The position numbers were made by a program, and so were the translations under genes. From assembly GCF_000182565.1 (NCBI RefSeq), contig NW_015971544.1, positions 570,365-634,364 on the forward strand: a stretch of 64,000 nt of DNA. Reading direction: 5' to 3'. Each line of letters opens with the position of its first letter. Position 1 is the first letter of the stretch. This DNA comes from Spizellomyces punctatus DAOM BR117 (Eukaryota; Chytridiomycota; Chytridiomycetes; Spizellomycetales; Spizellomycetaceae). Shown one piece after another: positions 35,734 through 61,766 of the stretch. A model generated the notes under the pieces. That model was not told the origin of the DNA. It saw only the letters and a program-made list of their open reading frames with translations, and made no database searches.

Positions 35734-35777
35734 TGATACAGTGCAGATAAGCCGTACGGCTTATCTGCACTGTATCA
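35734..35777. repeat. Perfect 44-bp terminal palindrome, left
   Basis: Two 22-base arms, TGATACAGTGCAGATAAGCC on the outside and GTAC at the centre, fully self-complementary. The tip of the element can therefore fold into a hairpin. The same palindrome ends the right arm. Confidence 0.95.
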
Positions 35778-35856
35778 GCCGGCTTATTTATGATTATAAG
35801 CTGGCTTATTATTCTATATACCCGGCTTATTATATATTACATCAGCCCGGCTTATT
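35758..35856. promoter_or_regulatory. Phased GGCTTATT iterons in the terminus
   Basis: GGCTTAT(T/C) begins at 35758, 35781, 35803, 35824 and 35849, spacings of 21-25 bases, about two helical turns. This is the pattern expected of a protein array on one face of the DNA. A transposase or replication initiator site is a reasonable guess. A mirrored set lies in the right arm. Confidence 0.6.
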
Positions 35857-36002
35857 ATATTTAAACGCCCACTCCATATTTAAACGCCGTGTCAATTTAA
35901 CTCAAACGTGGTTCTAACCACTCGGACCCCATCTCGAACACACCAATTTCGAATAGTTTTTTCCCTTCATACTTTGCCAGCATTTTTTCCATGATTGCCC
36001 CA

Positions 36003-36491
36003 TCATGTGCTTTCGAATCCTCCTTCAGTTACTGATACACACGACACCTTCAGTCTCAATACATTCCGTTGCATGCGATAGATGGCGGAAATCTGTGTCA
36101 CCTGGTCTTCCGTGTATCCGGCATTCATTAGCTCCTTCTTGATATCGTTTGTAAGCGCCCCCAACTTCTCCTCTACTAGCGATGCCACATACATATTCGA
36201 GCCATCTTCACCAATGATTGACCGGATACCTAAGTCCACCATCTTCCTTTCAATCGCCTCCTTACTCCGTCGATTCCCTGTTACTATCTTTTGGTACTTC
36301 TCATTGTCAACCGTTAGTTGGTAGAATCTCTTAATGTCAAACAGCTCCTCTCCACTAGCTCTCCTTATCAATTTCTGAGCCGCAAGGCGACTCAGCGCGC
36401 TCGAAGGAGCACTGTCCATGGTTAATCGATGCCGTGTGAATCGCTCATAATCGTAATTGTTTTGGTGGGCAGGGGAGGGACATTGAACCAT
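36003..36491 (-). CDS. TIR-encoded protein, left copy, 162 codons
   Basis: Identical protein to the right-arm copy at 61009-61497, so the element carries two copies. I do not recognise the family. The protein is charged, helical in appearance and ends GGFEST. Residues from about 25 (DSAPSSALSRLAAQ) are the translation of the element's dispersed GC hairpin repeat. An alternative start is the ATG just before that segment (36419). The preserved frame in both arms argues for selection or recent homogenisation. It is transcribed towards the element end. Confidence 0.6.
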   Translation of the reverse strand: MVQCPSPAHQNNYDYERFTRHRLTMDSAPSSALSRLAAQKLIRRASGEELFDIKRFYQLTVDNEKYQKIVTGNRRSKEAIERKMVDLGIRSIIGEDGSNMYVASLVEEKLGALTNDIKKELMNAGYTEDQVTQISAIYRMQRNVLRLKVSCVSVTEGGFEST

Positions 36492-36645
36492 CGACTTTAT
36501 GCAAAAACTTGGACTTGCTATTGATAGTTGCTTTTCCCACTTTACATCAGCAGATTACTACACGTACGACTCACGTGATGCACCTTCCTAATATGGTAAT
36601 CAACTATCGATAGATTCACTTTGCAAAGCAATTCATGTGATTTGC

Positions 36646-36660
36646 CATGTCCCAGACATG
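36646..36660. promoter_or_regulatory. CATGTC-N3-GACATG palindrome, site 1
   Basis: CATGTCCCAGACATG, embedded in a longer conserved context (ATGTGATTT upstream, TTAGTCCCC and GATCATG downstream) also found at 51327 and mirrored at 60840. It lies in the left TIR, upstream of the TIR gene. Confidence 0.6.
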
Positions 36661-36928
36661 TTAGTCCCCCGATCATGACTCAGCTTCAGTTAGCCAATCT
36701 TGATCGTAATTCTTTAAATACAGCTTTGGTTTCCGAGGTCGCCTACGGCGAAAGTAAAGGAACATTCAATGGCCACACTACGCGTCCTCGCTTGAGCCTG
36801 CGCTCAGCGCGCTCCGAAGGGAGCGCTGTCCTTCATAAGTGTGGAGTCAGACGGTGTAAATGAAAGTGAATGGTGACTCGATTCCGCATATACTAAAATT
36901 AGGGGGGCCTGTTTGGGGGGCCTGTTTT

Positions 36929-37028
36929 NNNNNNNNNNNNNNNNNNNNNNNNNNNNNNNNNNNNNNNNNNNNNNNNNNNNNNNNNNNNNNNNNNNNNNNN
37001 NNNNNNNNNNNNNNNNNNNNNNNNNNNN
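36929..37028. other. Assembly gap, 100 N, in the left TIR
   Basis: Placeholder gap after GGGGGGCCTGTTTT. The right arm has about 10 bases (TTTACTCCAT) at the same place. Probably a homopolymer-induced break. Confidence 0.95.
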
Positions 37029-37330
37029 GCCTCTCCATATATGATTTAGCAGCTAATCCCCGTCGAGTCAACTTATCGAGTGATAAAAAGGGGGGCCTGG
37101 GGGGCCTGTTTTTTGGACATTTGGGGTCTACAGAGATGTTCTACTAAAGTAAAAATAGGAATAATGTGTTTGTTGTTTTTTACTCTGCTTTTTTCATTCC
37201 AAACAATCTACTTTCGAAAAAACAGGCCCCCCAAGCCCCCCCTAAAAAACAATGAATTATACTACATATATCTACTCCATATATTCTCTCTTTTTTCATA
37301 GCTCTCTTCATACATCGAGTAAAAAAAAAC

Positions 37331-37371
37331 AGGCCCCCCACATGCCCCCCACATGCCCCCCACGCCCCCCT
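37331..37371 (-). promoter_or_regulatory. G-quadruplex-type G6 array at the inner TIR edge
   Basis: On the minus strand four runs of six G are separated by 3-5 bases (GGGGGGCGTGGGGGGCATG and so on), satisfying the usual G4 rule. Related GGGGGGCCTGTTTT units occur at 36901-36928 and 37089-37112 on the plus strand and at 37217-37243 on the minus strand. The right arm has the mirrored array at 60219-60257. Function unknown. Confidence 0.5.
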
Positions 37372-37402
37372 AAAAACAATCAATTATATAGTCCCTCTCT
37401 TT

Positions 37403-40213
37403 TCACTCACGCAATCGGATTCCTATGTAAAAGCGAGTTCCCTTGATTTTCTTTTCCTTCAGAACTGAACTAAGTTCCTTGTGAAATTGATTTGCACTAA
37501 GTGGTTCTTTGGTGCTCCCGAAGAATTGTATGTAGTAATGTTTGTACAATTCCTTTTTTTCAACTCGATTGTTCTTCATATCCGTTTGGTAATCTACCAG
37601 CATGTACGTCTTCTCCAGCCATTTTGCGGCGCTTAGACTGTTCATCAGGTTCCTCTGTGTAAATTCCATCACAGCAGGAGGGGTTTCTATTTCGAACGCC
37701 GATGGTATCCCAAAGAAAGTGGTATAATATTCGAAAAGCATTAAGATGAATTCGTCCCTGTAGGCGGGTGAGGAGAACAACCGCTTAAGTGACCTATCTA
37801 TGATTTTTCTCGAAGTTGGGCTGTCCTCCGTTTCGTCATCCGCGACTTCATCTCCTTCATCTTCATCTCCTTCCTCCTTATTATCTTCATCAGCATCATC
37901 GAAGCAGAATGGATATTCCTGCACCCGAGCGTGCATTGCAAGGGCACGCTCCACTTTGTCAAACTTGATGTCCTCGTTCGTTTGAACATTAAGGAGACCA
38001 GTGATGGGAAATGATATGGGTTTTCCATGCAATGACCGGACCGTTTGTCGGTCATCACCGGACGACCAGCGTTTAATGATTTCTGCTATAAAATAGTCAC
38101 CAGGACTAGTCTCGGAAGTGGATAAGTACCTCTTGCCAAAACAGTTGTACAACTGAGCGTTGGGAGCATCAACGGTTGCACTTTCCATCGTTAAATTCTT
38201 CTTGTCAACCGCATAATAGTATCCCCCAAATGCCTGGTCAATCAAAGTATTTTCTGTACCTTTTCCATTGCGACCTCCCCCCTTCAACACCATGAAGATT
38301 TCGTCCACAATTTTACCATAGAGGCAGCGACACACTATGTGGAAGCGATAGTTTACCAGGTCACGAGAGGGAAAGATGCTTTCATAGAAAGAGAGAATAT
38401 GTTCGCGTATCTCTGGGTTGGTTTTTCTCGGATATGGATAACCACAGGTGAAAAGGATGTAATCATCGGGTCGAATATCTCGAAACGTACCTGTGTTCAG
38501 TTCATATACGCCATCTGTGAAGGCAAATAGTTCTGGTTTGGAAAGGAAGAGGTCGATGCATTTATCGTTTCTCGGTTGCAAACGGTCAACATTTTTGGCC
38601 ACTTGCACTGAAAAGTTGTTCATTTCAATATCGCGACGGAATGATGCCAAGAGGTCTTGGAGCAATGAAACATTGGTCTCTTGACCATCATCATCGGCAT
38701 CCTGGATGAGTCTCTGAAAGTCGGCAATAAGGGTATCGGCGACTTGAAGATTAACATCGCTATCTGCAATGTTTTCTTGCTTATACCAGATATTGTCTTT
38801 TCCAAGGATAAAGCAGATTCCGCTGGAATGCTTGAAGATAGTGTCTTTCTTGATCTCCACAAACCATTCAGCGGTGTTCTTGTGGGTGGGAACCAACACT
38901 CGCCGAAAATCAAACCTTTTCCATTGCGGAAGGCGACGCAACTCATCAATATCCAATTCTTCCCTGGCGTCTCTCTTTCTCTTCTTCGGCTGTTCGGCAA
39001 TAGGTTCTTCATTCACTTCAGGCGGAACAGTTAGATGGAATTGGTCGAGGAAACTCTGAGAAAATTCCATGGGCTTCTCGGACAATCGGATGGAGTAACC
39101 GGTTTCTGCCAAGATATATTGTTCGCATTCATGCAAGAGGTTGACGTCAAACAATCTATCAGTTCCAGGCTTGCGTCTGACCTGAATTCCATCATAAATC
39201 AACACATCCACAGAATATTGGATATCGGTGAAAAACTCGTGCATCGACCACATGATACAATTTTCGACGGTGTGGTAAACGAGGCTAAGGAACGACCCAG
39301 CACGATTCTGCTTCTTACGTGAAGTCCTCAGCCAAATATCAGGAAACTGTTTTTGGAGAAGCGGCACCAGTTTTTGGTATACGAAGGAGTGAATGGCAGC
39401 GACTTGCTTGTTGAAATTGGTGGCCTTTTTTTCACAGTTAACAATTGCTATCATGTCTTGTTTGTTCATCTTCCATTCACTCAATAATGTGTCACGATTT
39501 TCAACGTAATCATCCAAGTGGGGGCAGAATAGGTTATTTGATTTGCTTAGTTCCCTTAATACAGTGAATTGAGCATTAACCATATCAAGATCATGGTACT
39601 CGTGTCCGCAAAGGTAAGCACGGAAAGGGAAGGTACGAGCAGGGGTCCCTTGAAGTGAACTAGGGTTTACCTTTTCACCGTCGTCATTGTTCAAATGGAA
39701 GCAACGACATTGTGCATATAAACGTCCGATGCGTAAATCACGGTTATTCTCTGAAAAGTTATACTCCACATGGTAGTCGTTGGGGCCAACCCGTCGTTTT
39801 TTGAATGAGCGGAAAAATCTTTTGTATTCTTCAGATACGTAGGGAGAGTTCAAGATTTCCCTCAATCTAGCATCCGACACGAATTCAAACTTTTCGATGG
39901 GCAGTTGCATTTGTGCAGATTGAGTGACCGTGGGTATATCACTGTTATCAACAGGAAAGAGCAGAGGGTCGTGACCAACTTCGTTATTATCCTCGATGTT
40001 CTCGTTCGTTTGCTTTTCGGTTTTAATTTTCTTTTTATCAGGTAAGGATGGTGGCGCCTTGGTTTCAACTCCCTTCTTGTGCTTCTGGGGAGTGAATGTA
40101 CCATCGGCGTCAACAACAAAAATTTCTTCTTTCGCATCTTCAACAATTAACAAAGGTATATTTTTGCGAATCGCAATGACTTTAGGCGCTTTCTTGCTGG
40201 ATTGAGTTTGCAT
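37403..40213 (-). CDS. TVpol-type DNA polymerase fused to SF3 (D5-like) helicase
   Basis: The replication enzyme of the element, 936 residues. After a charged N-terminus (1-110), residues about 150-400 resemble the transposon/virus family-A polymerase (TVpol): GRLYAQCRCF; the motif-A-like DLDMVNAQFTVLREL near 206; and the motif-C-like VLIYDGIQVRR near 335. Residues about 560-800 form the D5N plus superfamily 3 helicase: Walker A LKGGGRNGKGT near 641-651, a Walker-B-like RYLSTSE near 695 and motif C GLLNVQTNEDIKFD near 740. An acidic insert follows (near 770-800). TVpol-SF3 fusions are known from virophages and Polinton-like viruses. A TATA-like box lies 54 bases upstream of the start. Divergent from the small gene at 40381. 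Helicase part certain in type, polymerase part somewhat less so. Confidence 0.85.
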   Translation of the reverse strand: MQTQSSKKAPKVIAIRKNIPLLIVEDAKEEIFVVDADGTFTPQKHKKGVETKAPPSLPDKKKIKTEKQTNENIEDNNEVGHDPLLFPVDNSDIPTVTQSAQMQLPIEKFEFVSDARLREILNSPYVSEEYKRFFRSFKKRRVGPNDYHVEYNFSENNRDLRIGRLYAQCRCFHLNNDDGEKVNPSSLQGTPARTFPFRAYLCGHEYHDLDMVNAQFTVLRELSKSNNLFCPHLDDYVENRDTLLSEWKMNKQDMIAIVNCEKKATNFNKQVAAIHSFVYQKLVPLLQKQFPDIWLRTSRKKQNRAGSFLSLVYHTVENCIMWSMHEFFTDIQYSVDVLIYDGIQVRRKPGTDRLFDVNLLHECEQYILAETGYSIRLSEKPMEFSQSFLDQFHLTVPPEVNEEPIAEQPKKRKRDAREELDIDELRRLPQWKRFDFRRVLVPTHKNTAEWFVEIKKDTIFKHSSGICFILGKDNIWYKQENIADSDVNLQVADTLIADFQRLIQDADDDGQETNVSLLQDLLASFRRDIEMNNFSVQVAKNVDRLQPRNDKCIDLFLSKPELFAFTDGVYELNTGTFRDIRPDDYILFTCGYPYPRKTNPEIREHILSFYESIFPSRDLVNYRFHIVCRCLYGKIVDEIFMVLKGGGRNGKGTENTLIDQAFGGYYYAVDKKNLTMESATVDAPNAQLYNCFGKRYLSTSETSPGDYFIAEIIKRWSSGDDRQTVRSLHGKPISFPITGLLNVQTNEDIKFDKVERALAMHARVQEYPFCFDDADEDNKEEGDEDEGDEVADDETEDSPTSRKIIDRSLKRLFSSPAYRDEFILMLFEYYTTFFGIPSAFEIETPPAVMEFTQRNLMNSLSAAKWLEKTYMLVDYQTDMKNNRVEKKELYKHYYIQFFGSTKEPLSANQFHKELSSVLKEKKIKGTRFYIGIRLRE

Positions 40214-40266
40214 ATTGGTTATTTTACTTCCGGGTTTTTTTGTGAACTAACCATTTCGTACCAATC

Positions 40267-40276
40267 TTTATATAAG
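40267..40276 (-). promoter_or_regulatory. TATA-like box for the polymerase-helicase gene
   Basis: TTTATATAAG on the plus strand reads TTATATAAA on the minus strand, 54 bases before the ATG at 40213. Near-identical boxes precede the RING gene and the gene at 59332-59688, suggesting a shared promoter class. Confidence 0.5.
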
Positions 40277-40380
40277 CATTTGAATGCACATCGGAGCTAT
40301 TTAGGCAACATCGGTCGCCGATGTAAAATGCGTTTATTTAAACAAGCACGATTTTGGTACATCAATAATATACAACGAAA

Positions 40381-40584
40381 ATGCCACACTCAAAATTTGA
40401 TTACACTGGGATATTCGAAAAGTACGGGATTACCCAGACATTCCACGCTCCATCATTGCGGCAGTTGTCAAAGATGATGGATATCTCAGAGATGACTATG
40501 AGAAAGGCCGCAAAAATGAATGGAGAACTGTATCCCCGTGCAATCATACCTTTGAGAGTCTCGAAGGTTCCAAAGCAGAACTAA
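40381..40584 (+). CDS. Small hypothetical protein, 67 codons
   Basis: It starts with ATG (MPHSKFDYTGIFEKYG) 168 bases from the divergent replication gene. The segment LRQLSKMMDISEMTMRKAAK could form a helix-turn-helix, so a DNA-binding regulator is possible but unproven. Its stop overlaps the convergent gene at 40581 by four bases. Confidence 0.45.
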   Translation: MPHSKFDYTGIFEKYGITQTFHAPSLRQLSKMMDISEMTMRKAAKMNGELYPRAIIPLRVSKVPKQN

Positions 40585-40742
40585 GTTCGATCATCCTTAT
40601 AATCCTCAATCAAACTCTCCCTCATCCGCTTACTCCGCTCTTCAAGGTAGCATTGGAGACAAAGAGGTCTCCGTTGACAAGGAACCTTATCATACTCTCT
40701 GCCACATTTTTTACATTGACGTTTTGCTATGCTAGTTTCCAT
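40581..40742 (-). CDS. Small zinc-ribbon-like protein, 53 codons
   Basis: Starts METSIAKRQCKKCGREYDK and has a second pair of cysteines in PLCLQCYLEERSKR, giving CxxC-x(14-15)-CxxC, a plausible zinc ribbon. The rest is basic and helical. It is convergent with the gene at 40381 (4-base overlap). Such tiny zinc proteins often act in transcription or DNA binding; its role here is unknown. Confidence 0.5.
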   Translation of the reverse strand: METSIAKRQCKKCGREYDKVPCQRRPLCLQCYLEERSKRMRESLIEDYKDDRT

Positions 40743-40821
40743 TTTTTAGACTTGATCTGAAAGTGTTTAAGTATGAACGAACTCACTCTAAATTTTTTTG
40801 AACCACTGTGTTAACATATCA

Positions 40822-40992
40822 ATGGATTTAACAACTCCCGAAACGAAAGTCGAAACACTGAAAAAAAGGCTACGTTGGCTGAATGATTTATGGAAGGAGG
40901 CAAGGACAACTGAGAAACGCCTCGCCATTCACCAAGAAATCGAGCGAGTTAAGTTCGAATTAAAGGAACTTGGGTATATGAGATACTTTTAA
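40822..40992 (+). CDS. Small coiled-coil protein, 56 codons
   Basis: ATG at 40822 (MDLTTPETKVETLKKRLRW). The protein is almost entirely a charged amphipathic helix with heptads (LKKRLRWLNDLW, IERVKFELKEL). No family is recognised. It lies in a run of small plus-strand genes. Confidence 0.45.
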   Translation: MDLTTPETKVETLKKRLRWLNDLWKEARTTEKRLAIHQEIERVKFELKELGYMRYF

Positions 40993-41046
40993 ATGGCTCA
41001 ACGCAATATATGCCGCATTTTTTTTTTATTTTTATAAGGAATAGCC

Positions 41047-41289
41047 ATGTTCTGTAGTACATCCGGATTGACCAATGTTCTTGTGACACTTTTTGTTGTA
41101 GTCGCCATAACTTGTTATGGCTTGACAGAATTGATTAATTGGACAGATGGTTATAAACAACGCCTGGTCTATCAGGAAAGATACCAACAGAAAGAAAACC
41201 TGCGCGATGCATTGGAAATCTTGGAAGACGAATTTGAATGTTATTGCAAGAACAGAAATCCCACATCAGATGACGCGCTAGCCGTGTGA
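41047..41289 (+). CDS. Small single-pass membrane protein, 80 codons
   Basis: N-terminal hydrophobic helix (VLVTLFVVVAITCYGL, about residues 11-27) followed by a charged, coiled-coil-like tail with two Cys near the end. Only one membrane span is predicted by eye. The last codons run into the GC hairpin repeat at 41283. Small membrane proteins are common in Polinton-like viruses, perhaps for virion membranes or lysis; that is inference. Confidence 0.5.
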   Translation: MFCSTSGLTNVLVTLFVVVAITCYGLTELINWTDGYKQRLVYQERYQQKENLRDALEILEDEFECYCKNRNPTSDDALAV

Positions 41290-41630
41290 GCCGCCGCAAG
41301 GCGGCGACTCAGCGCGCTCGAAGGAGCGCTGTGAGCGCTGTAAACGAGATTATGATCAGTAAACATGTCCGGAACATGATAAATCACGTGCATTCTCCTC
41401 GGCACGAGACTAAACTGCCTGGCGAGTAACAAGACCGACCGACGAATATCATAGTTATTGTTTTTAAATCTGGTTGATTCAGACTGTTCTTTAGGCTTTC
41501 TCAGACAGCGCTGAGCCGCCGCAAAGGCGGCGACTCACCCAAAAGAAAGCACAGGTCATGGTACTGACCGAACAATAAGAAAGTACCACCACAGCTCCTT
41601 CGAGCACATCGAGCTGCGCCGCAAGGCTTC
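41283..41630. repeat. Cluster of GC-rich hairpin repeats
   Basis: Three copies of the element's dispersed palindromic repeat, at about 41287-41340, 41503-41537 and 41600-41630. The core is GAGCCGCCGCAAGGCGGC joined to CAGCGCGCTCGAAGGAGCGC. Each part is self-complementary. Other copies lie at 36377, 36794, 43672, 54816 and in the right TIR. Confidence 0.75.
41364..41378. promoter_or_regulatory. CATGTC-N3-GACATG-like palindrome, site 2
   Basis: CATGTCCGGAACATG, one base off the consensus. On the minus strand it is preceded by CACGTGATTTAT and followed by a GATCAT, as at the other sites. It lies between the membrane-protein and RING genes. Confidence 0.5.
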
Positions 41631-41653
41631 ACAGCTTTTAAAATTGATATAAA

Positions 41654-42109: not shown

Positions 42110-42159
42110 CGAGATTTTAGAAAAAGAGAGATTTTATTAGACATTTACTTCTGTCAATC

Positions 42160-42169
42160 TTTATATAAA
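42160..42169 (-). promoter_or_regulatory. TATA-like box for the RING gene
   Basis: TTTATATAAA, 51 bases before the ATG at 42109, the same sequence and spacing as at 40267. Confidence 0.5.
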
Positions 42170-42210
42170 CCTGAGTAAGTGCGAATCTATCTATAGCTTC
42201 GCCTTTGAGC

Positions 42211-42300: not shown

Positions 42301-42386
42301 ACAGACTATCAATAAAGATGAAATAAATTTCTTATATTAAGTGATAAACCGGCTTATATCCTTTAGAATACAAATCAGCCCTGAAA

Positions 42387-43367: not shown

Positions 43368-44683
43368 TGACTGTTCTCAAAATCATTCACACTGTCCCTC
43401 GCCCCACGCATAAGTTCACTTCTTGGCTCCCATGTAGCCTGGTCACGGTCATATCCTCTCCATAAGACGAGGTATTCAACTACTTGTCTTGAACCGACTC
43501 GACGTGTCCGCTTATCAAGCAATGCTTCCACTTCATACTCACCTTCTGGTACTTCCTCTTCATCCCCTTCAATTTCAGGCTCAACTTGTGGAGTTTGTCC
43601 ATCATCCTCTTTTGGAACCAAACGCAATTGCCAAGCGGGATACACTCCTGGCAGCGGATGATCAGAATTGACAGCACTCCTTCGAGCGTGCTGAGTCGCC
43701 GCAAGGCGGCTCACAGGCTTAATTTTATAACTGCCCATGTAATTGGGGTGGGGATTTGGAACAACGGCTGTTATTTCATACTTCTCTTCTGAAAAGTAAC
43801 CGAGCTTGGCCCGGCGTTTTATATCTGTCCCCTGTCCTGATATATACTTTCTTACAACATCGCCCACACTGAATGGAGGTAATACTTTCACCCCTCTTCC
43901 TTTCGTGCGCAGCGCACGTTGGGCTTGAGCCGCTCCTTGGATGTCTGCCTCCATCTGTTGCACAGTACGGAGTTTCTTCCCAGAACCGAAACTTACGGTA
44001 GAATTTATGTTCTCCACAATCTGCGGTAACATGGTCACCCAATCTCTGTTTCCCAAGCGCATCCCCATGAACAACGCTCGCTTTATGGTGCCATTCATCC
44101 TTTCGACCTGTCCATTTGTTTGAGGTGAGCCGGCCTTCGAATACCTCCATTCTATGCCATGTGTTTCTGCATACTGTGAAGTGATACCTTGAAACTCGTT
44201 TCCATTGTCGCTTTGAATACCATGGATTTCGACACCATCCTCAATGAGGTTTTGTAAAAAGTTAACGACACTTTGTTGCCGTGTATCTTTCAAGGCTTTA
44301 GCGTAAACGCGTTTAGTTAAAATATCAACCGCAACTGCTACATATTTATAGCCATTGTATGGGACGCTAATCATTGAAAAAAGATCGAGTTGAAGTTGTC
44401 CTGGGCTACTTGATAATATAGGACGGATGCCACCCTTGTTTGTCAATGGTCGAGACCAGCGTTGCCAGATCGGTTGCTCTTTCAACCATGCTAATAGTGT
44501 CCGTTGGGAGATATTGCTCTCAGGATACTTTGCTTTGTAGAGTGCCCAGAGCCTGTCTCGGCCCATGTACGCATGCTCTCTATAGTAGAGCTGCCTTAAA
44601 CGCCGCTCATCCTCTGGTGTGATCTCTTTCCAGTAGTTCTTCCTTTGATCCATCTTATCAATAAGAATCAGCTTTAAAAACAT
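43364..44683 (-). CDS. Retroviral-type (rve) integrase with chromodomain
   Basis: A 439-residue DDE integrase. The catalytic residues are visible: D in QLDLFSM near 98, D in QSDNGNEFQG near 160 and E in NGQVERMNGTIK near 195. An N-terminal helical zinc-less region precedes it. The C-terminal YEVEALLDKRTRRVG...YLVLWRGYDRDQATWEP near 390-430 is a chromodomain, typical of Polinton and chromovirus integrases and thought to steer insertion towards marked chromatin. Residues near 323-340 (SRLAATQHARRSAVNS) are a translated copy of the GC hairpin repeat, read from the strand opposite to that in the TIR gene. This enzyme fits the 5-bp target duplication. The ATG MDQRKNYW a few codons in (44653) is an alternative start. 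Confidence 0.9.
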   Translation of the reverse strand: MFLKLILIDKMDQRKNYWKEITPEDERRLRQLYYREHAYMGRDRLWALYKAKYPESNISQRTLLAWLKEQPIWQRWSRPLTNKGGIRPILSSSPGQLQLDLFSMISVPYNGYKYVAVAVDILTKRVYAKALKDTRQQSVVNFLQNLIEDGVEIHGIQSDNGNEFQGITSQYAETHGIEWRYSKAGSPQTNGQVERMNGTIKRALFMGMRLGNRDWVTMLPQIVENINSTVSFGSGKKLRTVQQMEADIQGAAQAQRALRTKGRGVKVLPPFSVGDVVRKYISGQGTDIKRRAKLGYFSEEKYEITAVVPNPHPNYMGSYKIKPVSRLAATQHARRSAVNSDHPLPGVYPAWQLRLVPKEDDGQTPQVEPEIEGDEEEVPEGEYEVEALLDKRTRRVGSRQVVEYLVLWRGYDRDQATWEPRSELMRGARDSVNDFENSH

Positions 44684-53383: not shown

Positions 53384-54748
53384 TCAAACCACGGTAACAA
53401 CAGCACCAATGGAAAGTGTAACATTCTCGAAATAACACGTCACCATGCGCACCTTTTGCGTAGGTGCCGTTGCATGAGTTGTATGCACACGAAGCAAACC
53501 ATCGCTGCCAGTAAATGAGAGTGCCGCATTACTGCCTTCATCCTTTGATGCAAATGACCAGCCAAATGAGAATGCCTTGGAATCATAGTCGGCGAACGAC
53601 ATGTCCATATCTCCTAATTGGTCAAAGTTGTTATTTGACAATTGTGTGACAAGCAGTGTTTGATTATCACTCGGTGAATGTGTGAAGCCTTGTATTCCAC
53701 TTGGAATGGTCAAGTTCGGGCCGATTTGCATACGCCACTCGCGTAGTCCCTGGGACGAATACATTAACGCTTTATCTTTTGTGGTATCATTCAAAACGTC
53801 GTCATCGATAAAGGACATCTCCACACCCTGGAGAGAGCGAACGCCAGACATATGGAGCAAGAAGGTGTTCCGGTTTCCGCCACTACATGCATTTTCCGTT
53901 TGGGTTGAGCGCACATAGTCATAGAATATTGATTTACCGTCCGAAATAGCACGAGTCGCGTTGACAACGGTCGTCGGAGGAGGAGTGATATAAGGGACCA
54001 AACACCGAATGTTGGAAACCCGAATCTCACCTACACCGGCGCTTGTAAACACTGTGTTCGGGTCTGCGAGGGTGATAATGATTTCTAACGCCTGATTTGG
54101 AAGGGCCCACACAGGGAAGAACTGGTCATTCGATGGATGGCAAAAACCGACGAACGGGTGGTGATTAATGGAAATGGTACTTGATGTTGCAAAGATGTTG
54201 GTGTTTCCATATCCGGAAAGTTGGCTCAACAATTTCTTACTACCGGTGGATAGATTGCGGTACGTTTGTACTAGATAAAGAGGATAGTTTGGAATGTTAA
54301 CAACAGTTTCTCCCCCTGCTTTGATGGTTAATGATTGAATAATGGATTCTAAGCCAAGGTACGTATTTTTAACACCTGTACCAGGAGTTATCAGGTTCCC
54401 TGCATTATCGTATGCAGAGACATCCATGGAGAGAATGAGTTTTTGCAGAATGAAACTCACCGAATTAGAGTCACAAGTTATCTTGATTGGGGTCAGGTTA
54501 CGACTTTTTGTCGTATATGTGCTTTGACCAATCGGACTATAGATTGACACGCCTTCCCACGGGGGTCTGAGTACCCCCTCGNNNNNNNNNNNNNNNNNNN
54601 NNNNNNNNNNNNNNNNNNNNNNNNNNNNNNNNNNNNNNNNNNNNNNNNNNNNNNNNNNNNNNNNNNNNNNNNNNNNNNNNNNNNNNNNNNNNNNNNNNNN
54701 NNNNNNNNNNNTGTCATTGGCATATGAATTGTAATCAAATTCAACCAT
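53384..54748 (-). CDS. Probable double-jelly-roll major capsid protein (interrupted by gap)
   Basis: About 454 codons counting the gap (54582-54711, near the N-terminus). Beta-rich throughout with few charged helices: strands such as KITCDSNSVSFILQKLILSMD, ITIKA-type hairpins, EIIITLADPNTVF and a C-terminal VRMVTCYFENVTLSIGAVV. Length, lack of Cys-rich motifs and position next to the penton and packaging ATPase genes fit Polinton-like major capsid proteins with two jelly rolls. I recognise the type from layout and composition rather than from one signature motif. The lysine-rich gene upstream overlaps its start by eight bases. Confidence 0.7.
   Translation of the reverse strand: MVEFDYNSYANDXXXXXXXXXXXXXXXXXXXXXXXXXXXXXXXXXXXXXXXXXXXXEGVLRPPWEGVSIYSPIGQSTYTTKSRNLTPIKITCDSNSVSFILQKLILSMDVSAYDNAGNLITPGTGVKNTYLGLESIIQSLTIKAGGETVVNIPNYPLYLVQTYRNLSTGSKKLLSQLSGYGNTNIFATSSTISINHHPFVGFCHPSNDQFFPVWALPNQALEIIITLADPNTVFTSAGVGEIRVSNIRCLVPYITPPPTTVVNATRAISDGKSIFYDYVRSTQTENACSGGNRNTFLLHMSGVRSLQGVEMSFIDDDVLNDTTKDKALMYSSQGLREWRMQIGPNLTIPSGIQGFTHSPSDNQTLLVTQLSNNNFDQLGDMDMSFADYDSKAFSFGWSFASKDEGSNAALSFTGSDGLLRVHTTHATAPTQKVRMVTCYFENVTLSIGAVVTVV
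54582..54711. other. Assembly gap, 130 N, inside the capsid gene
   Basis: The left flank is the GC-rich inverted motif CGGGGGTCTGAGTACCCCC, which probably stopped assembly. Residues about 13-56 of the capsid are unknown, so I cannot prove that the frame is intact there. Confidence 0.97.
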
Positions 54749-55235: not shown

Positions 55236-55272
55236 TTGTTTCTTCCTTACACAGAAAAAAAAAATCATAAGA

Positions 55273-55992
55273 TTAGACATCCGCTACATCATCTGAAAAT
55301 GCAAAACGAACCGTTAAGGGACTATTCAATGCAACTTCCAAACCGGTCATCGAGTCAATCAGATAGAATTCGATTTTAGATATGGTATCATCTACGGGAA
55401 GCCATTCTCCCCCATCATTGGTCCAGGTCACTACATCACCGAAACTATCAGGGACAACTGCAGCAACTACAGATTGCGCAGAATCATTGAAGTCACTGAG
55501 GTAGCGGCTTCCCTTTACTTGAATGTTACTCGTGAGTAGAACTGGATATGAACCCGAGAGGTTAACTGGGTTCTTCAATGTTACCATTTGGTAATATCCA
55601 GTCTCGGTCCAGCGAGACTGCCCGGTCAAAATGTAGGCCGTAGTTCCACGTGTGGCTGGCAGGATTTTGAACTTCTTAGGCCCTGTTGCTGCTATGGAAA
55701 TCTTCCTGCTCACTCCATCATAACTAACAGTATAACTCTGTGTTCCGGCGGCGCTCATAGCGTCTGCTACTGCTAATGGGAAGTTTGCAATACTGTAGTT
55801 TCCGGGCGCGATGGTTGCATTATAAATCGTACTATCGCCTTCTTCTACAAATGCTATAACATTATTTGCACTAGATACCAAGTCCCAATCCTGAAGGAAA
55901 CTCACGGAGAGCACCTTCATCATCTCCATCCTCCTAGGAGGAATGGAAAATGACCTCGACTTCAGACTGCAATATGTAATCTCGTTAATCAT
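55273..55992 (-). CDS. Probable penton (minor capsid) protein
   Basis: A 239-residue beta-rich protein. The block GNYSIANFPLAVADAMSAAG followed by YTVSYDGVSRKISIAA, the later LKNPVNLSGSYPVLLTSNI, and the end SKIEFYLIDSMTGLEVALNS...VRF match the single-jelly-roll minor capsid proteins of Polinton-like viruses and virophages, which close the five-fold vertices. It is the first gene of a minus-strand block (penton, lysine-rich, capsid) and divergent from the packaging ATPase by 41 bases, a very common viral arrangement. Confidence 0.75.
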   Translation of the reverse strand: MINEITYCSLKSRSFSIPPRRMEMMKVLSVSFLQDWDLVSSANNVIAFVEEGDSTIYNATIAPGNYSIANFPLAVADAMSAAGTQSYTVSYDGVSRKISIAATGPKKFKILPATRGTTAYILTGQSRWTETGYYQMVTLKNPVNLSGSYPVLLTSNIQVKGSRYLSDFNDSAQSVVAAVVPDSFGDVVTWTNDGGEWLPVDDTISKIEFYLIDSMTGLEVALNSPLTVRFAFSDDVADV

Positions 55993-56033
55993 GATATTTC
56001 CTTACCTTTTATGTAAAGACAAAGGAAATTTAA

Positions 56034-56747
56034 ATGTCCTATAAACCACGCCCAATCTTTCCAGCGGGTAAGAAGAAGAAAGACAATCGCATCCCAGTTG
56101 ACCTCGCTTCACCGCCTCTATGTACTACGTTGGTTGCCCCAAGGAAAAGTGGTAAGTCAGCATTAGTTTGTGGTCTGATAGAGGATGTGTATGCAAAGTG
56201 TCATGACAAAGTCATTCTGATGAGCGACACCGTTGAGTATGATGCTTCGGTGAAAACGTTGGCTAAAACAACAAAACATGATAACATCTATTCCACAGAT
56301 GAGGTATCGAATGCCTCTATAGCAAAGATTGTGGAAGAACAAAAAAAAGCACACAAGGATGAAGGTAAGTCATTATTATTGTTCATCAATGATGCCGGAG
56401 ACTCGGCTAGGAGTGCCGACTTAAATCGAGAGTTATCTAAATTGTACACAAAATGCCGGCACTTTGGGATTTCCTTGTGTGTGGCTATACAAAGTGTCAC
56501 TTCACAGATATCCAGAAAAATGAAGAACTGTACAACAGAATGGATTGTCTTTAAGAACAATGCAGAGGATATGAAACTACTCGCAAAGATGTTAACGTCG
56601 GCCTACAAAGAAGAAAAAGAGGTATTGAAATATCTCACTGAATGCACCACACAACCGTATTCATTTTGTTATGTTAACATGGCAGCAAACAATGCTAAGG
56701 ACATGTATCGTTATTCCGATTCAGAAGGGTTCAAGGATTATTTTTAG
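56034..56747 (+). CDS. FtsK/HerA-type genome-packaging ATPase (A32-like)
   Basis: A 237-residue P-loop ATPase that pumps DNA into capsids. Walker A is VAPRKSGKSALV at about residues 34-45; the Walker B strand is SLLLFINDAGDSARSA near 113-128, followed by a conserved Gln in CVAIQSVTSQISRKMKN near 151-167. Length and motif spacing match the short packaging ATPases of Polintons, virophages and poxvirus A32. Start ATG 56034 lies 41 bases from the divergent penton gene. Confidence 0.85.
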   Translation: MSYKPRPIFPAGKKKKDNRIPVDLASPPLCTTLVAPRKSGKSALVCGLIEDVYAKCHDKVILMSDTVEYDASVKTLAKTTKHDNIYSTDEVSNASIAKIVEEQKKAHKDEGKSLLLFINDAGDSARSADLNRELSKLYTKCRHFGISLCVAIQSVTSQISRKMKNCTTEWIVFKNNAEDMKLLAKMLTSAYKEEKEVLKYLTECTTQPYSFCYVNMAANNAKDMYRYSDSEGFKDYF

Positions 56748-56761
56748 CCATGCGAAGCCGA

Positions 56762-57493
56762 TTACAATGCACACATGATATAGCCCAAATCCTTGAACAC
56801 ATTGATGAAGTCATCACCTAAAGGATAGCTGCGGTCTGAATCATAATAAATAACCATTCGACCAAATGGGTCTTGATGTTGTTTCTTTGTAGATGCCGAT
56901 GCCGGCATTGGCGCTCCGCGCCGGCATGGTTTCGTTTCCCATTGAACTCGTTTCGCCAGAAAACAAACCATTCCTTCTGTTAACAATCTTTTGGCCCATT
57001 TCCGATCCGGTGTACAGGGGGTAATAGCTAAGATTTGCTTCACATTGCCTCTATCAATTTCCGAAAAAGCCTTTTCGAAAAACTGTTCGAGGAGGCGGTG
57101 CGGACCCTTAATACCGGCTTCCTCTGGGCACATCGCGGAACCGGGCGGGTTCAGGAAAACTGTTTCTCCTTTCCACTCATTCATCAAAAGGGCGTTGATA
57201 AATGTACCATCCTTTTGGTAACCAAAGGTTTTCCTTGCTCGAATGTGGCTTTGCTCATTTGAGCACGGGTCTAAGTCAAATATCGGGATGAATGAATGAA
57301 CAACCTCTGCTAGACTACTGGGGGTGTTATAGACATTATTCACTCCAAGTCTAATGAATTTGTTTTGTTCTTTCGCTTTGCGGGACATATTTGGATTTCT
57401 GGTTAGCTTGTAGGATTTCTCCATGGAATGTTTTTTATGCAAAAATCCATTCTCATCTTTTTGACCATGATATGTCAATATCGGCATACACAT
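56762..57493 (-). CDS. Dam-like DNA N6-adenine methyltransferase
   Basis: A 243-residue protein of the phage-type adenine methyltransferase family. VYNTPSSLAEVV near residue 58 resembles the NTP block, IFDLDPCSNEQSH near 74 is the cofactor-binding region, and VFLNPPGSAM near 115 is the catalytic NPP(F/Y)-type motif. It probably methylates adenine in the element's DNA. Near residue 190 an insertion PCRRGAPMPASAS corresponds to a second palindromic repeat (56892-56928). It converges with the packaging ATPase and diverges from the zinc-finger gene. Confidence 0.8.
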   Translation of the reverse strand: MCMPILTYHGQKDENGFLHKKHSMEKSYKLTRNPNMSRKAKEQNKFIRLGVNNVYNTPSSLAEVVHSFIPIFDLDPCSNEQSHIRARKTFGYQKDGTFINALLMNEWKGETVFLNPPGSAMCPEEAGIKGPHRLLEQFFEKAFSEIDRGNVKQILAITPCTPDRKWAKRLLTEGMVCFLAKRVQWETKPCRRGAPMPASASTKKQHQDPFGRMVIYYDSDRSYPLGDDFINVFKDLGYIMCAL

Positions 57494-57584
57494 AGATCAT
57501 CCGTACGTTGAAGCTTTCACTAGAAAGGAAAAAGCCACAGATCTATTAATAGACCTCTTTCCCAATCCGGAAAAGTGTGGCTAT

Positions 57585-57599
57585 CATGTCTGGGACATG
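57585..57599. promoter_or_regulatory. CATGTC-N3-GACATG palindrome, site 5
   Basis: CATGTCTGGGACATG followed by TTAG, in the divergent promoter between the methyltransferase (start 57493) and the zinc-finger gene (start 57681). Confidence 0.6.
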
Positions 57600-57680
57600 T
57601 TAGCTCCATGGAATAACATAAAAGAAGTCAACGAGCCTCTTCCCCTCCCCCCTCATCTCATTCACACACAATTCTCCACC

Positions 57681-59021
57681 ATGGTCTCCGCTCGTCCTTC
57701 AACTAGTAGTCATCATCAATTACCAGCAGATTACCTGGATGCGATTAATTCAGCGGTAGAAAGCGATACCAAGAAAGACTATATGCATGCTTTAAAAAAG
57801 CTTGTGAAATATTGGGAAGAGAATTGGGAAGAATATTGGCCTAGCAGCGATGACGGGTCTACGGAAAACATTACGAAGTTCTTCAAGACAATTGGGGATA
57901 AATACATCGTCCCGCAAAACCAACGAAACCCAGAAAAACCATCAAAGCGCGGTGATGATCCAAAAACTGCAAATAAAAAGTTTACAGTTGACGAACTTGT
58001 GGAATTGTTGAAAAATGCAAATGAAGTTAAACGCCCTCTGTGCGGTAGTTCTTATAATACGAACTCGGCCCTTAACAAGTTCATTTCAAGATTTACGAGT
58101 GGAAAGGTTGAAGAAGATAAGATCAAAGAATTCGATATGAGATTGACGAATACCAGCCAGCGTTTTGTGGAAATGAGCTTAAAATTACGGTGTGAGTATG
58201 GCAAGACATTACCAGCTCGAAGTGAGAATGGAAATCAACAGAGCGAATATGGGACGTATTGCAGAAAATTAGCCACTCTGTATGAGGCGTTTGGGGAACT
58301 TATCGTCTCTGTGAAAAAATTACATAAACAAACGAGGCTATTTCGAACAGATTATCGTGTACTGGACAAAGTCATTGGACGAAAAGAGGAAATCCTTCAA
58401 CATCGGGACAACAACGGTTCCTCTGAGGAACATCATGACAACAACGGTTCCCCTGAGGAACATCAGGACAACAACGGTCCCTCCGAGGATGTCCCTCAAC
58501 ATGACAACAACGGTCCCTCTGAGGATCGGGACAACAACGGTCCCTCTGAGGATCGGGACAACAACGGTTCCTCTGAGGTGGATGTCCCTCAACATGACAA
58601 CAACGGTTCCTCTGAGGATGTCCCTCAACATGACAACAACGGATCCTCTGAGGAACATCAGGACAACAACGGTTCCTCTGAGGATGTCCCTCAACATGAC
58701 AACAACGGATCCTCCGAGGAGGGTACAAACCGGAAGGCTCCTCAACAGCCGTCCACGGGTACAAAGCGGAAGGCTCCCCTCAAAAGGCAAGATAAACCTA
58801 GCAAAAAATCTTCCACGTATAAAATACCTTTCGGCCGTGTACTCGAATGCAACCTCTGTAAGGAGGGCTTCAGCACTCATGGAAGGTTTCAAACACACAT
58901 GTTAAAGAAGCATAGTGTGGCTACCTGTGACACCGATTTCCCTACCTATGAAAAAGAGGACAGTATCACGATGGAAATGGTTGCCTATGAAAATGGAGAT
59001 CTTATCGAGACGGCGCTGTAA
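57681..59021 (+). CDS. C2H2 zinc-finger protein with DNNG repeats
   Basis: I start at ATG 57681 (MVSARPSTSSHH), in a good context, rather than at the longer frame from 57597, which would include the CATGTC palindrome. About 446 residues. The N-terminal half is helical and charged without a known fold. The middle carries ten DNNG(S/P)(S/P)E units encoded by a minisatellite. A basic linker (KRKAPLKRQDKPSKKSS) precedes one C2H2 finger, CNLCKEGFSTHGRFQTHMLKKH shortened here to its ends C..C and H..H. A DNA-binding regulator is likely; the target is unknown. Confidence 0.65.
   Translation: MVSARPSTSSHHQLPADYLDAINSAVESDTKKDYMHALKKLVKYWEENWEEYWPSSDDGSTENITKFFKTIGDKYIVPQNQRNPEKPSKRGDDPKTANKKFTVDELVELLKNANEVKRPLCGSSYNTNSALNKFISRFTSGKVEEDKIKEFDMRLTNTSQRFVEMSLKLRCEYGKTLPARSENGNQQSEYGTYCRKLATLYEAFGELIVSVKKLHKQTRLFRTDYRVLDKVIGRKEEILQHRDNNGSSEEHHDNNGSPEEHQDNNGPSEDVPQHDNNGPSEDRDNNGPSEDRDNNGSSEVDVPQHDNNGSSEDVPQHDNNGSSEEHQDNNGSSEDVPQHDNNGSSEEGTNRKAPQQPSTGTKRKAPLKRQDKPSKKSSTYKIPFGRVLECNLCKEGFSTHGRFQTHMLKKHSVATCDTDFPTYEKEDSITMEMVAYENGDLIETAL
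58402..58725 (+). repeat. Coding minisatellite (GACAACAACGG units)
   Basis: Ten units of GACAACAACGGTTCCTCTGA alternating with GATGTCCCTCAACAT spacers. All length steps keep the frame. Because the unit lacks stops in several frames, it creates long spurious open frames on both strands, which I disregard. Confidence 0.85.
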
Positions 59022-59033
59022 GGCGCTTCACCA

Positions 59034-59285
59034 TCAATCATCATCACTGTTATATACGACAGTCTTTCTCTTTTTGAATGATTTTTTGTATTTCTCTTTG
59101 AGTTCATCAACGGATATTAGTTTCTGGAGATAACTCTTAGCATCTTTGCTGAATGCTTCCACTTGCAGCACATCATTCACAAAGTCTCTTTTCTGGTCCA
59201 ACGACCCTATCTTTTCATAGGTTTCCACTAGCATGCTTGTTAACCCGTCCTCCGATGTTTCCTCTGGAAAGTACACTTTGCGCAT
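59034..59285 (-). CDS. Small charged protein, 83 codons
   Basis: Starts MRKVYFPEETSEDGLTSMLV and ends in a basic then acidic tail (KKSFKKRKTVVYNSDDD). It looks alpha-helical, without a known motif. It converges with the zinc-finger gene 12 bases away. One of two small minus-strand genes near the right TIR. Confidence 0.5.
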   Translation of the reverse strand: MRKVYFPEETSEDGLTSMLVETYEKIGSLDQKRDFVNDVLQVEAFSKDAKSYLQKLISVDELKEKYKKSFKKRKTVVYNSDDD

Positions 59286-59331
59286 TTACCTTTTGACATG
59301 AAAAAAACAAATGTTTCATCCGCAGTTCTAT

Positions 59332-59688
59332 TCAACACACAACAACCTCAATATCCATAGAACTAGATAGACTCTTAGTACAATGAAGGATTAAGTCTAA
59401 TTGTTCGACAACAAATGATTCCCTTTCACTCTTATCCTGCATTTGATGATATGTTTCTATAGTGGTAGATAGTAAGAGAATCATACCAGGCCAACTAGTT
59501 TCAAAATGTGTAGGATATTCGAAAATATGTTGAGCCGCCCATGAAATTGGCAGAAGTGCAGCCGTGAGACGTTCTTCATCATTATCCGCAGCGCCCGCAA
59601 CTATTCCATCTATCGCTCGGTGAATCACCTGGGAATAAAAAACACATCGGAATTGCTTTGCATTTTCAGGTTCTTGGTCAGACGACAT
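59332..59688 (-). CDS. Hypothetical protein, 118 codons
   Basis: Starts MSSDQEPENAKQFRCVFYSQ. It appears all-helical, with hydrophobic segments (LLPISWAAQHIF, WPGMILLLSTTIE) that do not look like full membrane spans. No family recognised. A TATA-like box lies 36 bases upstream, supporting a real transcription unit. Confidence 0.55.
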   Translation of the reverse strand: MSSDQEPENAKQFRCVFYSQVIHRAIDGIVAGAADNDEERLTAALLPISWAAQHIFEYPTHFETSWPGMILLLSTTIETYHQMQDKSERESFVVEQLDLILHCTKSLSSSMDIEVVVC

Positions 59689-59723
59689 TATACAATACTG
59701 TCAAAATGTGAAGGTTAAGATAC

Positions 59724-59733
59724 TTTATATAAT
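59724..59733 (-). promoter_or_regulatory. TATA-like box for the 118-codon gene
   Basis: TTTATATAAT, third member of the promoter class also seen at 40267 and 42160, 36 bases upstream of the ATG at 59688. Confidence 0.45.
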
Positions 59734-59857
59734 AATGACTCTTTACATCATTGTTCTACATCATGTAGCTAATTTGATGTAGTAGTTGATGTGTGTCCAT
59801 TCTTATAAAAAGCTAGTATTTGCTTCCAGAGCTTCTGCATTCAAACACAATCGAAAC

Positions 59858-60199
59858 ATGTCTTTCCCAGTTACTCCAAAGCGTGAACACTTTGCTAATT
59901 GCATCATGCTCTTCAAGACGGACACGTTGATGGCAATGGATAAGCGAGGAAGGTGCATCCATATCAACACTTCCAACTTTCCTGAAGTTCGCCATATTAT
60001 GAATGATGAAGATTTGTTTCGCATCTTTGTTCATAACAAAACCAAAAGGAGCGCGGGGGAAAAGAATCGGATTTGCCCTGTTTGTTCATGCAACTATGAT
60101 ATTCCTGACCTACTCAAAACAGCAACGGAAAAGGAGATGGCTCTCTCCGGTGTTTGTAGTGATGCCTGCTGGGATACAGCGACGAAATTCGATGACTAA
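59858..60199 (+). CDS. Zinc-ribbon-like protein, 113 codons
   Basis: I choose ATG 59858 (MSFPVTPKREHFANC), as the upstream 24 codons look non-coding and a TATA-like TTATAAAAA lies near 59803. The C-terminal part has RICPVCSCNYDIPDLL and later SGVCSDACWDTA, two CxxC-type pairs that could hold zinc. No named family. It is the last gene before the right TIR. Confidence 0.55.
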   Translation: MSFPVTPKREHFANCIMLFKTDTLMAMDKRGRCIHINTSNFPEVRHIMNDEDLFRIFVHNKTKRSAGEKNRICPVCSCNYDIPDLLKTATEKEMALSGVCSDACWDTATKFDD

Positions 60200-60839
60200 G
60201 ATAGAAGTGAATGTGAGCCGGGGGCGTGGGGGGCATGTGGGGGGCATGTGGGGGGCCTGTTTTTTTTTACTCGATGTATGAAGAGAGCTATGAAAAAAGA
60301 GAGAATATATGGAGTAGATATATGTAGTATAATTCATTGTTTTTTAGGGGGGGCTTGGGGGGCCTGTTTTTTCGAAAGTAGATTGTTTGGAATGAAAAAA
60401 GCAGAGTAAAAAACAACAAACACGTTATTCCTATTTTTACTTTAGTAGAACATCTCTGTAGACCCCAAATGTCCAAAAAACAGGCCCCCCAGGCCCCCCT
60501 TTTTATCACTCGATAAGTTGACTCGACGGGGGTTAGCTGCTAAATCATATATGGAGAGGCATGGAGTAAAAAAACAGGCCCCCCAAACAGGCCCCCCCTA
60601 ATTTTAGTATATGCGGAATCGAGTCACCATTCACTTTCATTTACACCGTCTGACTCCACACTTATGAAGGACAGCGCTCCCTTCGGAGCGCGCTGAGCGC
60701 AGGCTCAAGCGAGGACGCGTAGTGTGGCCATTGAATGTTCCTTTACTTTCGCCGTAGGCGACCTCGGAAACCAAAGCTGTATTTAAAGAATTACGATCAA
60801 GATTGGCTAACTGAAGCTGAGTCATGATCGGGGGACTAA

Positions 60840-60854
60840 CATGTCTGGGACATG
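60840..60854. promoter_or_regulatory. CATGTC-N3-GACATG palindrome, site 6
   Basis: CATGTCTGGGACATG, the mirrored right-arm copy of site 1. Confidence 0.6.
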
Positions 60855-61008
60855 GCAAATCACATGAATTGCTTTGCAAAGTGAATCTATCGATAGTTGA
60901 TTACCATATTAGGAAGGTGCATCACGTGAGTCGTACGCGTAGTAATCTGCTGATGTAAAGTGGGAAAAGCAACTATCAATAGCAAGTCCAAGTTTTTGCA
61001 TAAAGTCG

Positions 61009-61497
61009 ATGGTTCAATGTCCCTCCCCTGCCCACCAAAACAATTACGATTACGAGCGATTCACACGGCATCGATTAACCATGGACAGCGCTCCTTCGAG
61101 CGCGCTGAGTCGCCTTGCGGCTCAGAAATTGATAAGGAGAGCTAGTGGAGAGGAGCTGTTTGACATTAAGAGATTCTACCAACTAACGGTTGACAACGAG
61201 AAGTACCAAAAGATAGTAACAGGGAATCGACGGAGTAAGGAGGCGATTGAAAGGAAGATGGTGGACTTAGGTATCCGGTCAATCATTGGTGAAGATGGCT
61301 CGAATATGTATGTGGCATCGCTAGTAGAGGAGAAGTTGGGGGCGCTTACAAACGATATCAAGAAGGAGCTAATGAATGCCGGATACACGGAAGACCAGGT
61401 GACACAGATTTCCGCCATCTATCGCATGCAACGGAATGTATTGAGACTGAAGGTGTCGTGTGTATCAGTAACTGAAGGAGGATTCGAAAGCACATGA
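61009..61497 (+). CDS. TIR-encoded protein, right copy, 162 codons
   Basis: Same 162-residue protein as at 36003-36491, transcribed outward towards the right end. It starts MVQCPSPAHQNNYDY; the ATG at 61081 (MDSAPSSALSRLAAQ) is an alternative start that lies exactly at the edge of the translated hairpin repeat. No known domain. Confidence 0.6.
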   Translation: MVQCPSPAHQNNYDYERFTRHRLTMDSAPSSALSRLAAQKLIRRASGEELFDIKRFYQLTVDNEKYQKIVTGNRRSKEAIERKMVDLGIRSIIGEDGSNMYVASLVEEKLGALTNDIKKELMNAGYTEDQVTQISAIYRMQRNVLRLKVSCVSVTEGGFEST

Positions 61498-61722
61498 TGG
61501 GGCAATCATGGAAAAAATGCTGGCAAAGTATGAAGGGAAAAAACTATTCGAAATTGGTGTGTTCGAGATGGGGTCCGAGTGGTTAGAACCACGTTTGAGT
61601 TAAATTGACACGGCGTTTAAATATGGAGTGGGCGTTTAAATATAATAAGCCGGGCTGATGTAATATATAATAAGCCGGGTATATAGAATAATAAGCCAGC
61701 TTATAATCATAAATAAGCCGGC

Positions 61723-61766
61723 TGATACAGTGCAGATAAGCCGTACGGCTTATCTGCACTGTATCA
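61723..61766. repeat. Perfect 44-bp terminal palindrome, right
   Basis: The same self-complementary 44 bases as at the left end, ending ...CTGTATCA at the target duplication. Confidence 0.95.

Follow-up and report, generated by a model that had tools for sequence, protein, structure and literature searches.

Integrated Polinton-like Virus in Spizellomyces punctatus

The DNA analysed in this study (hereafter the window) is a stretch of 64,000 nucleotides from the chytrid Spizellomyces punctatus DAOM BR117, contig NW_015971544.1 (C8:570365-634364; the labels C1, C2 and so on refer to the 29 contigs of the 24.0-Mb genome). It holds a provirus of 26,033 bases, positions 35734-61766, located inside a Copia retrotransposon. 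Because the split Copia also exists uninterrupted twice within the window, the site as it was before insertion is directly visible: the left flank aligns to positions 25-2451 of one such copy and the right flank to 2447-4026, the 5-base overlap being the ACGTC that borders the provirus on both sides (Table 1). The terminal inverted repeats (TIRs), of about 1.55 kb, align in two stretches, one of 1196 bases (4 mismatches, 1 gap) and one of 341 bases (2 mismatches); over all 1537 aligned bases the arms thus differ at 6 positions plus 1 gap (0.4%). These ends, TIRs and total length, within the range of 14-40 kb given for Polinton-like viruses (PLVs) in the relevant part of PMC12220804, together with the packaging ATPase and a conserved capsid module, identify an integrated PLV. 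A first-pass annotation of this DNA had proposed the same ends, 5-bp duplication, inverted repeats and viral nature, all of which were reproduced. However, its assignment of the host to the basidiomycetes was wrong, as the capsid homologue P0001 (SPPG_02195) names S. punctatus DAOM BR117, a chytrid. That annotation did not mention the palindromes at the tips, the sister elements or the Polinton nearby, all of which are described below.

About 20 candidate single-frame genes were recognised, in agreement with the number first proposed, and 22 frames were carried into the analysis. In tblastn searches, 13 of these frames matched other copies in the genome, 12 closely and one, the 936-aa protein, weakly; the capsid, penton, ATPase, "fibre" and integrase candidates all have homologues in those copies. 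Profile searches, which had been proposed for four genes, gave matches for the packaging ATPase and for the 936-aa protein (D5_N), and no Pfam match for the window's own capsid and penton frames. The penton candidate, which stands next to the major capsid protein and the ATPase, had no match in any of the profile searches. The ATPase matched PHROG terminases and, with an alignment profile, the B204 ATPase of Sulfolobus turreted icosahedral virus (STIV), while a single-sequence search of the PDB with this protein returned nothing. The helicase half of the 936-aa protein resembles D5/P4 primases and African swine fever virus (ASFV) C962R, and its N-terminal half carries motifs of what we take to be a family A-like polymerase.

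Palindromic Termini

Both tips of the provirus consist of the same perfect 44-bp palindrome; no other palindrome in the window (loop of up to 4) has an arm longer than 10 bases. Across the window and 77 loci (351 kb, overlapping), palindromes this strong were found at element ends only, and intact palindromes of 44-50 bp are present at 11 of the 14 related ends examined in the genome. In an alignment of the five distinct sequences, all 108 cells were paired; both partners had changed in 13 of the 23 pairs, and no pair was broken. The termini therefore keep their pairing while changing in sequence, as expected for a double-stranded DNA virus with hairpin telomeres. By comparison, at most 45.5% of cells were paired when the pairing partners were slid by 1-3 columns, and none of 500 shuffles reached the observed paired percentage or covariation score. 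DNA folding of the palindromes gave z values of -9.7 to -12.5.

The palindromes are accompanied by subterminal repeats, and two types of end can be distinguished: GGCTTAT repeats lie beside the tips of C8, C22, C3 and C15-left, and CCCATAGTA repeats beside those of C16, C4 and C15-right. Within the C8 provirus, 12 of the 14 occurrences of GGCTTAT on both strands fall within the outermost 122 bases on one side or the other. In four of the five palindrome types, the subterminal repeats contain the arm motif again; palindrome arms of the GGCTTAT type and of C4 include the repeated motif or a close variant, and the arms of C16 and C15-right are without CCCATAGTA itself. A locus on C5 proved to be an internal repeat fragment without palindrome, and C11 holds a similar fragment.

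Table 1. Features of the provirus and of related elements. Positions refer to the window unless a contig label is given.
Feature	Position	Strand	Evidence or remark
Target-site duplication ACGTC, left	35729..35733	.	Present once in uninterrupted Copia copies (2447-2451; inverted copy, 7888-7892)
Left terminal inverted repeat	35734..37369	+	Contains 100-N run, 36929-37028
Left terminal perfect palindrome, 22+22 bases, no loop	35734..35777	.	Palindrome scan
Subterminal GGCTTAT repeats (4)	35778..35855	+	Motif also in palindrome arm; mirrored at 61645-61719
162-aa protein inside TIR	36003..36491 (second copy 61009-61497)	- (second copy +)	60-71% identical matches at 5 other places (C3 twice, C20, C22, partly C21), with GGCTTAT-type ends
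Primase/polymerase-helicase, 936 aa	37403..40213	-	N-terminal half bears the motifs YHDxD...NA and IYDG; helicase half assigned to D5_N and superfamily 3
RING finger protein, 151 aa	41654..42109	-	Profile match
Tyrosine-recombinase-like protein, 326 aa	42387..43367	+	R181, K212, R281, H308, Y317 invariant in 5/5 aligned sequences
rve integrase with chromodomain, stand-alone, 439 aa	43364..44683	-	Profile matches rve, Chromo
Repetitive "fibre" protein, 2036 aa	45141..51251	-	Full-length homologue on C22, 91% identical
Conserved capsid-module protein, 499 aa	51360..52859	-	tblastn matches in other copies
Conserved capsid-module protein, 99 aa	52917..53216	+	tblastn matches in other copies
Major capsid protein	53384..54748	-	130-N run 54582-54711 interrupts N-terminal part; frame not continuous across run
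Conserved protein, 179 aa	54741..55280	-	tblastn matches in other copies
Penton (minor capsid) candidate, 239 aa	55273..55992	-	Named from its position; three other copies are 76-92% identical
Packaging ATPase, 237 aa	56034..56747	+	PHROG terminase, E 1e-8; best solved match of profile STIV B204 ATPase, E 0.0079
DNA methyltransferase-like protein, 243 aa	56762..57493	-	PHROG match, E 1.8e-15; the Pfam Dam hit fell below the cut-off
Protein with tandem repeats and weak C2H2 finger, 474 aa	57597..59021	+	Repeat and Pfam scans
Right terminal inverted repeat	60220..61766	-	About 1.55 kb
Right terminal perfect palindrome	61723..61766	.	Palindrome scan; identical to left
Target-site duplication ACGTC, right	61767..61771	.	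Comparison with uninterrupted Copia copies
C16 element, 24,445 bp	C16:387543-411987		Duplication CCGCC; both ends paired
C4 element, 16,839 bp	C4:355344-372182		Duplication TAGGT; both ends paired; without capsid match; carries Ty3-like insertion
Intact palindromic ends	C8 left, right; C4 left, right; C16 left, right; C15 15.5k (1 mismatch); C15 64.7k; C22; C3:674.7k; C25		

Capsid Module, Sister Elements and Mosaicism

Related elements or ends are carried by nine contigs (C3, C4, C8, C15, C16, C20, C21, C22 and C25), and the three elements whose two ends could be paired (C8, C4 and C16) are all flanked by 5-base duplications. The two ends on C15 belong to different types and were left unpaired. 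Six places, spread over five contigs, carry the capsid gene; apart from the C8 gene itself, these copies match the query at 90-93% identity over almost its entire length, with no stop within the match. A possible seventh copy on C25 (151,846 bases) is suggested by a protein record, and the genome search did not list it. In the C8 copy, the second of the two N runs of the element hides the N-terminus, and the sequence beside it is out of frame with respect to the five other copies, so the earlier statement that all major frames are open is not supported for the capsid.

The search for capsid homologues retrieved 25 proteins, including one deposited as hexon of "Powellomyces chytrid fungus MELD virus 5"; other named homologues come from S. 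sp. "palustris", Powellomyces, Phlyctochytrium and Gaertneriomyces, and some from metagenome-type sources only. Pfam Capsid_N matched 8 of 17 capsid homologues at E <=1 (best 7.5e-4), P0001 not being among them, and a PDB search with the capsid profile returned chance-level matches only. From the sequence, a double-jelly-roll fold of the capsid protein has weak support. Homologues of the capsid (P0005, 71%) and of the polymerase-helicase (P0032, 40%) were both found on metagenome contigs of 13,883 bases, which probably represent one environmental relative.

Gene relationships disagree along the element. For instance, the C8 penton is 92% identical to that of C16 and 77% to that of C22, whereas the C8 ATPase is 78% identical to that of C22 and 73% to that of C16. 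A 66-residue piece of integrase on C22 is 79% identical to the C8 enzyme, and the C16 integrase 31-32%. The C8 fibre protein is 91% identical to that of C16 over 779 residues and 51% over a later 373. The replication proteins are different again: the genome holds no close relative of the 936-aa protein, whose best match is 32% over residues 198-398, on C16. That element encodes an 824-aa DUF5906 protein and a 674-aa primase-helicase; an 891-aa D5_N protein is found on C22, a Prim-Pol+D5_N protein on C21, and D5_N pieces on C15 and C4. The elements are therefore mosaic. Long frames on C15 and C22, considered as possible inserted repeats, were rejected as such, since they are N runs and tandem-repeat searches found none.

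Neighbouring Polintons

A Polinton lies 1.57 kb to the right of the provirus in the same Copia, starting at position 63336 and ending near C8:655080 (C8:633700-655080). It is flanked on both sides by the 6-bp duplication CTCCTG, this being the one Polinton copy checked, and PF03175 (PolB) was not detected in it. Genome-wide, seven PF03175 matches were found, on C1, C2, C9 and C22 (C22:303.5-305.5k), none of them at palindrome-ended elements. These PolB genes, together with rve integrases of about 374 aa on C1, C8 and C22, define a second set of elements. All six Polinton tips examined start with ACTACAAAG, their best stem being 7 bases in three and 5 bases in three; none of the six bears a long terminal palindrome. 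The provirus resembles Maverick/Polinton elements in its rve integrase, inverted repeats, and ATPase and capsid-type genes. However, Polintons in this genome have PolB (C1, C2, C9, C22), a 6-bp duplication in the one copy checked and no long terminal palindrome, whereas C8 as a whole gave no PF03175 match and the duplication is of 5 bp in all three palindrome-ended elements with paired ends.

Proposed End Replication and Alternative Explanations

We estimate a probability of roughly 65% that the element is a palindrome-ended PLV provirus of the S. punctatus group, with hairpin telomeres, inserted in a Copia of S. punctatus BR117; its host species matches that of the group. In such a virus, the stand-alone rve integrase would insert the linear viral DNA. 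At the tip, the terminal strand may fold back into a hairpin that either is closed or acts as its own primer; once copied out, the DNA would hold the full palindrome, which then integrates. Replication could be started at the tip and subterminal repeats by a virus-coded primase- or polymerase-type helicase instead of a protein-primed PolB, with initiators recognising the repeated motif. The palindromes would stay perfect because one arm templates the other, and capsid, replication and end modules may be swapped among co-resident viruses.

Several points weigh against this interpretation. A palindrome in chromosomal DNA is no proof of a closed or self-priming end, and the element is known from genomic sequence alone. 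The evidence for hairpin telomeres covers one genome, with five palindrome types, all from related elements, and 77 of 500 shuffles reached the observed number of pair types. Among the 14 ends, those of C20 and C21 are without palindrome and that at C3:1310.7k is shortened; beside the C16-type palindrome, the arm motif is not repeated in its own form. No nickase was recognised, the label of the N-terminal polymerase comes from motifs, and the sequence matches for a double-jelly-roll fold are weak. Parts of the C8, C15 and C22 copies are concealed by N runs. In addition, scans of viral contigs with capsid, recombinase and ATPase queries gave no relatives, but these scans were not sensitive enough, since PMC7805220 took members of the group from IMG/VR.

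The palindromes could instead be crossover sites of the tyrosine-recombinase-like protein, serving excision, circularisation or hairpin resolution of the telomere-resolvase type rather than replication, which we consider unlikely. The 326-aa protein, presumably a tyrosine recombinase by its motif, ends in MGHTY..HQ.YYN, and its invariant residues were counted over the protein and four homologues; library support for this family was absent from the profile searches, and PDB matches were at chance level. Its gene adjoins the integrase, and tyrosine enzymes are generally understood to act at inverted sites. A homologue, P0026 (SPPG_08458), is 83% identical and likely belongs to C22, and C15 holds a partial copy running into Ns. 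However, the C16 element, free of Ns from end to end, has perfect palindromes and yet no match to this gene. The 5-base duplications indicate rve activity, and subterminal repeats of the arm motif suit an initiator better than crossover sites. A 365-aa frame of C16 ends in a loosely similar H...Y by eye; it has no profile similarity and is not claimed as a second recombinase. The pairing of rve with a tyrosine-recombinase-like gene, unseen in a published set of 8,300 elements, would be unusual if the motif reading holds. P0026 is recorded for C22, yet the genome search gave no match there; it is perhaps inside the N run at L048 105-3693.

Another explanation, to which we give little credence, is that the palindromes are an integrase-end structure only, the rve enzyme needing or making end hairpins at insertion. 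The palindromes do abut the 5-base duplication, and four of the five types start with TG and end with CA (C4: TC...GA), like retroviral-type ends as commonly described. The Polintons of the same genome, however, have rve integrases (C1, C8, C22) and stems of at most 7 bases at all six tips, and palindromes are present in both the C8 and C16 elements although their integrases are only about 32% alike.

The elements might also represent a capsid-carrying transposon spreading within the genome, no particles being made. This fits with the several copies, the inverted repeats and the Copia insertion, and some intragenomic copying would account for the closeness of C22 and C3a, which have a synonymous divergence (dS) of 0.09 and a ratio of nonsynonymous to synonymous divergence (dN/dS) of 0.20 in the capsid gene, and 0.03 and 0.26 in the 499-aa gene. 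C15 is at dS 0.30-0.34 from both. However, capsid dS between C8 and C22, C16, C3a and C15 amounts to 1.07, 0.60, 1.18 and 1.52, with dN/dS of 0.08, 0.13, 0.08 and 0.08, while the TIR arms differ by far less; the lineages had therefore separated before the C8 insertion, with purifying selection maintaining capsid function. Other genes gave dS 0.42 and dN/dS 0.17 (fibre, C8-C22) and dN/dS 0.06 (penton, C8-C16); dS was saturated, giving no value, for the penton of C8-C22, all three ATPase pairs and the rve gene of C8-C16. The divergence pattern fits better with repeated entry by circulating viruses than with copying in place, though not for every pair, and metagenomes hold related capsid genes, so that a transposon without particles appears improbable. 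An assembly artefact or contamination, for which the N runs in the inverted repeat and capsid gene might be invoked, is next to negligible given the exact duplication relative to the uninterrupted Copia, the related elements or ends on nine contigs and the homologues in other Spizellomycetales.

Telomere resolvases resolve replicated palindromes in some phages and spirochaetes. A broader and rather doubtful extension of the hairpin-telomere interpretation is that chytrid PLVs are a group that swapped protein-primed ends for hairpin telomeres read via tip and subterminal motifs; the adjacent tyrosine-recombinase-like enzyme, or an equivalent, would resolve the replicated palindromes, and rve would insert the opened form. 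If true, this would connect small PLVs with the way in which poxviruses and asfarviruses replicate their ends. Five pairing-preserving palindrome types at exact ends, next to palindrome-free PolB Polintons in the same nucleus, make the question of end copying in PLVs without protein-primed PolB directly testable. In addition, fungal DNA viruses residing in this one genome seem to exchange capsid, replication and end modules; the host is a chytrid that can be grown in culture and, going by the title of eLife 2020 9:e52741, transformed.

Comparison with Other Viruses

One integrated PLV in S. punctatus, in a group named after the species, is reported in the pertinent sections of Bellas & Sommaruga 2021 (PMC7805220), so the host extension to fungi put forward in the first-pass annotation is not new. 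That PLV and the present one share the host species, the integrated state and the capsid; however, one element is described there, whereas six capsid-bearing places and additional capsid-less or decayed ones were found here. Chitinase, present in 52% of S. punctatus-group PLVs according to the same source, was not among the Pfam matches of the scanned window frames. The survey of Bellas 2023 (PMC10120064), as far as its relevant parts indicate, left out fungi. Cryptophyte PLVs, as described in parts of PMC12220804, likewise occur as several types per genome, with rve or tyrosine recombinase and TIRs, whereas the rve of the S. punctatus element stands alone.

The hairpin-ended poxviruses, asfarviruses and chloroviruses, as portrayed in portions of PMC11814242 and PMC12085832, share TIRs, hairpin tips and a D5-type helicase with the present element, whose helicase half matches ASFV C962R. 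However, their genomes are far larger and their hairpins mismatched or incompletely paired, whereas the S. punctatus palindromes are perfect or nearly so and integrated with a 5-base duplication. The words "hairpin" and "palindrom" do not occur in the main texts of PMC7805220, PMC10120064, PMC12220804 and PMC12721341, and no report of PLV end hairpins was found in titles or abstracts of the hairpin/palindrome literature searched, most subscription papers being outside its scope. Palindromic PLV tips were thus not found described in the literature searched.

Other Sequence Features

At the gathering cut-off, 35000-62500 gave no match to any Rfam family, and no tRNA was found anywhere in the window. 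An inverted motif, ACATGTCYNRGACATGWTA, occurs at six places, all within the element (36643, 41363, 44706, 51324, 57582 and 60837), in the TIRs and near gene starts, with 11 strand-wise matches at up to 2 mismatches against 0.04 expected; its core form is also present in the C4 end loci L007/L008, and it is possibly a shared operator. Short GC-rich hairpin repeats resembling GCGCTCCTTCGAGCGC are spread over the element, at 36386-36415, 36809-36831, 41303-41332, 43667-43700, 60669-60691 and 61081-61114.

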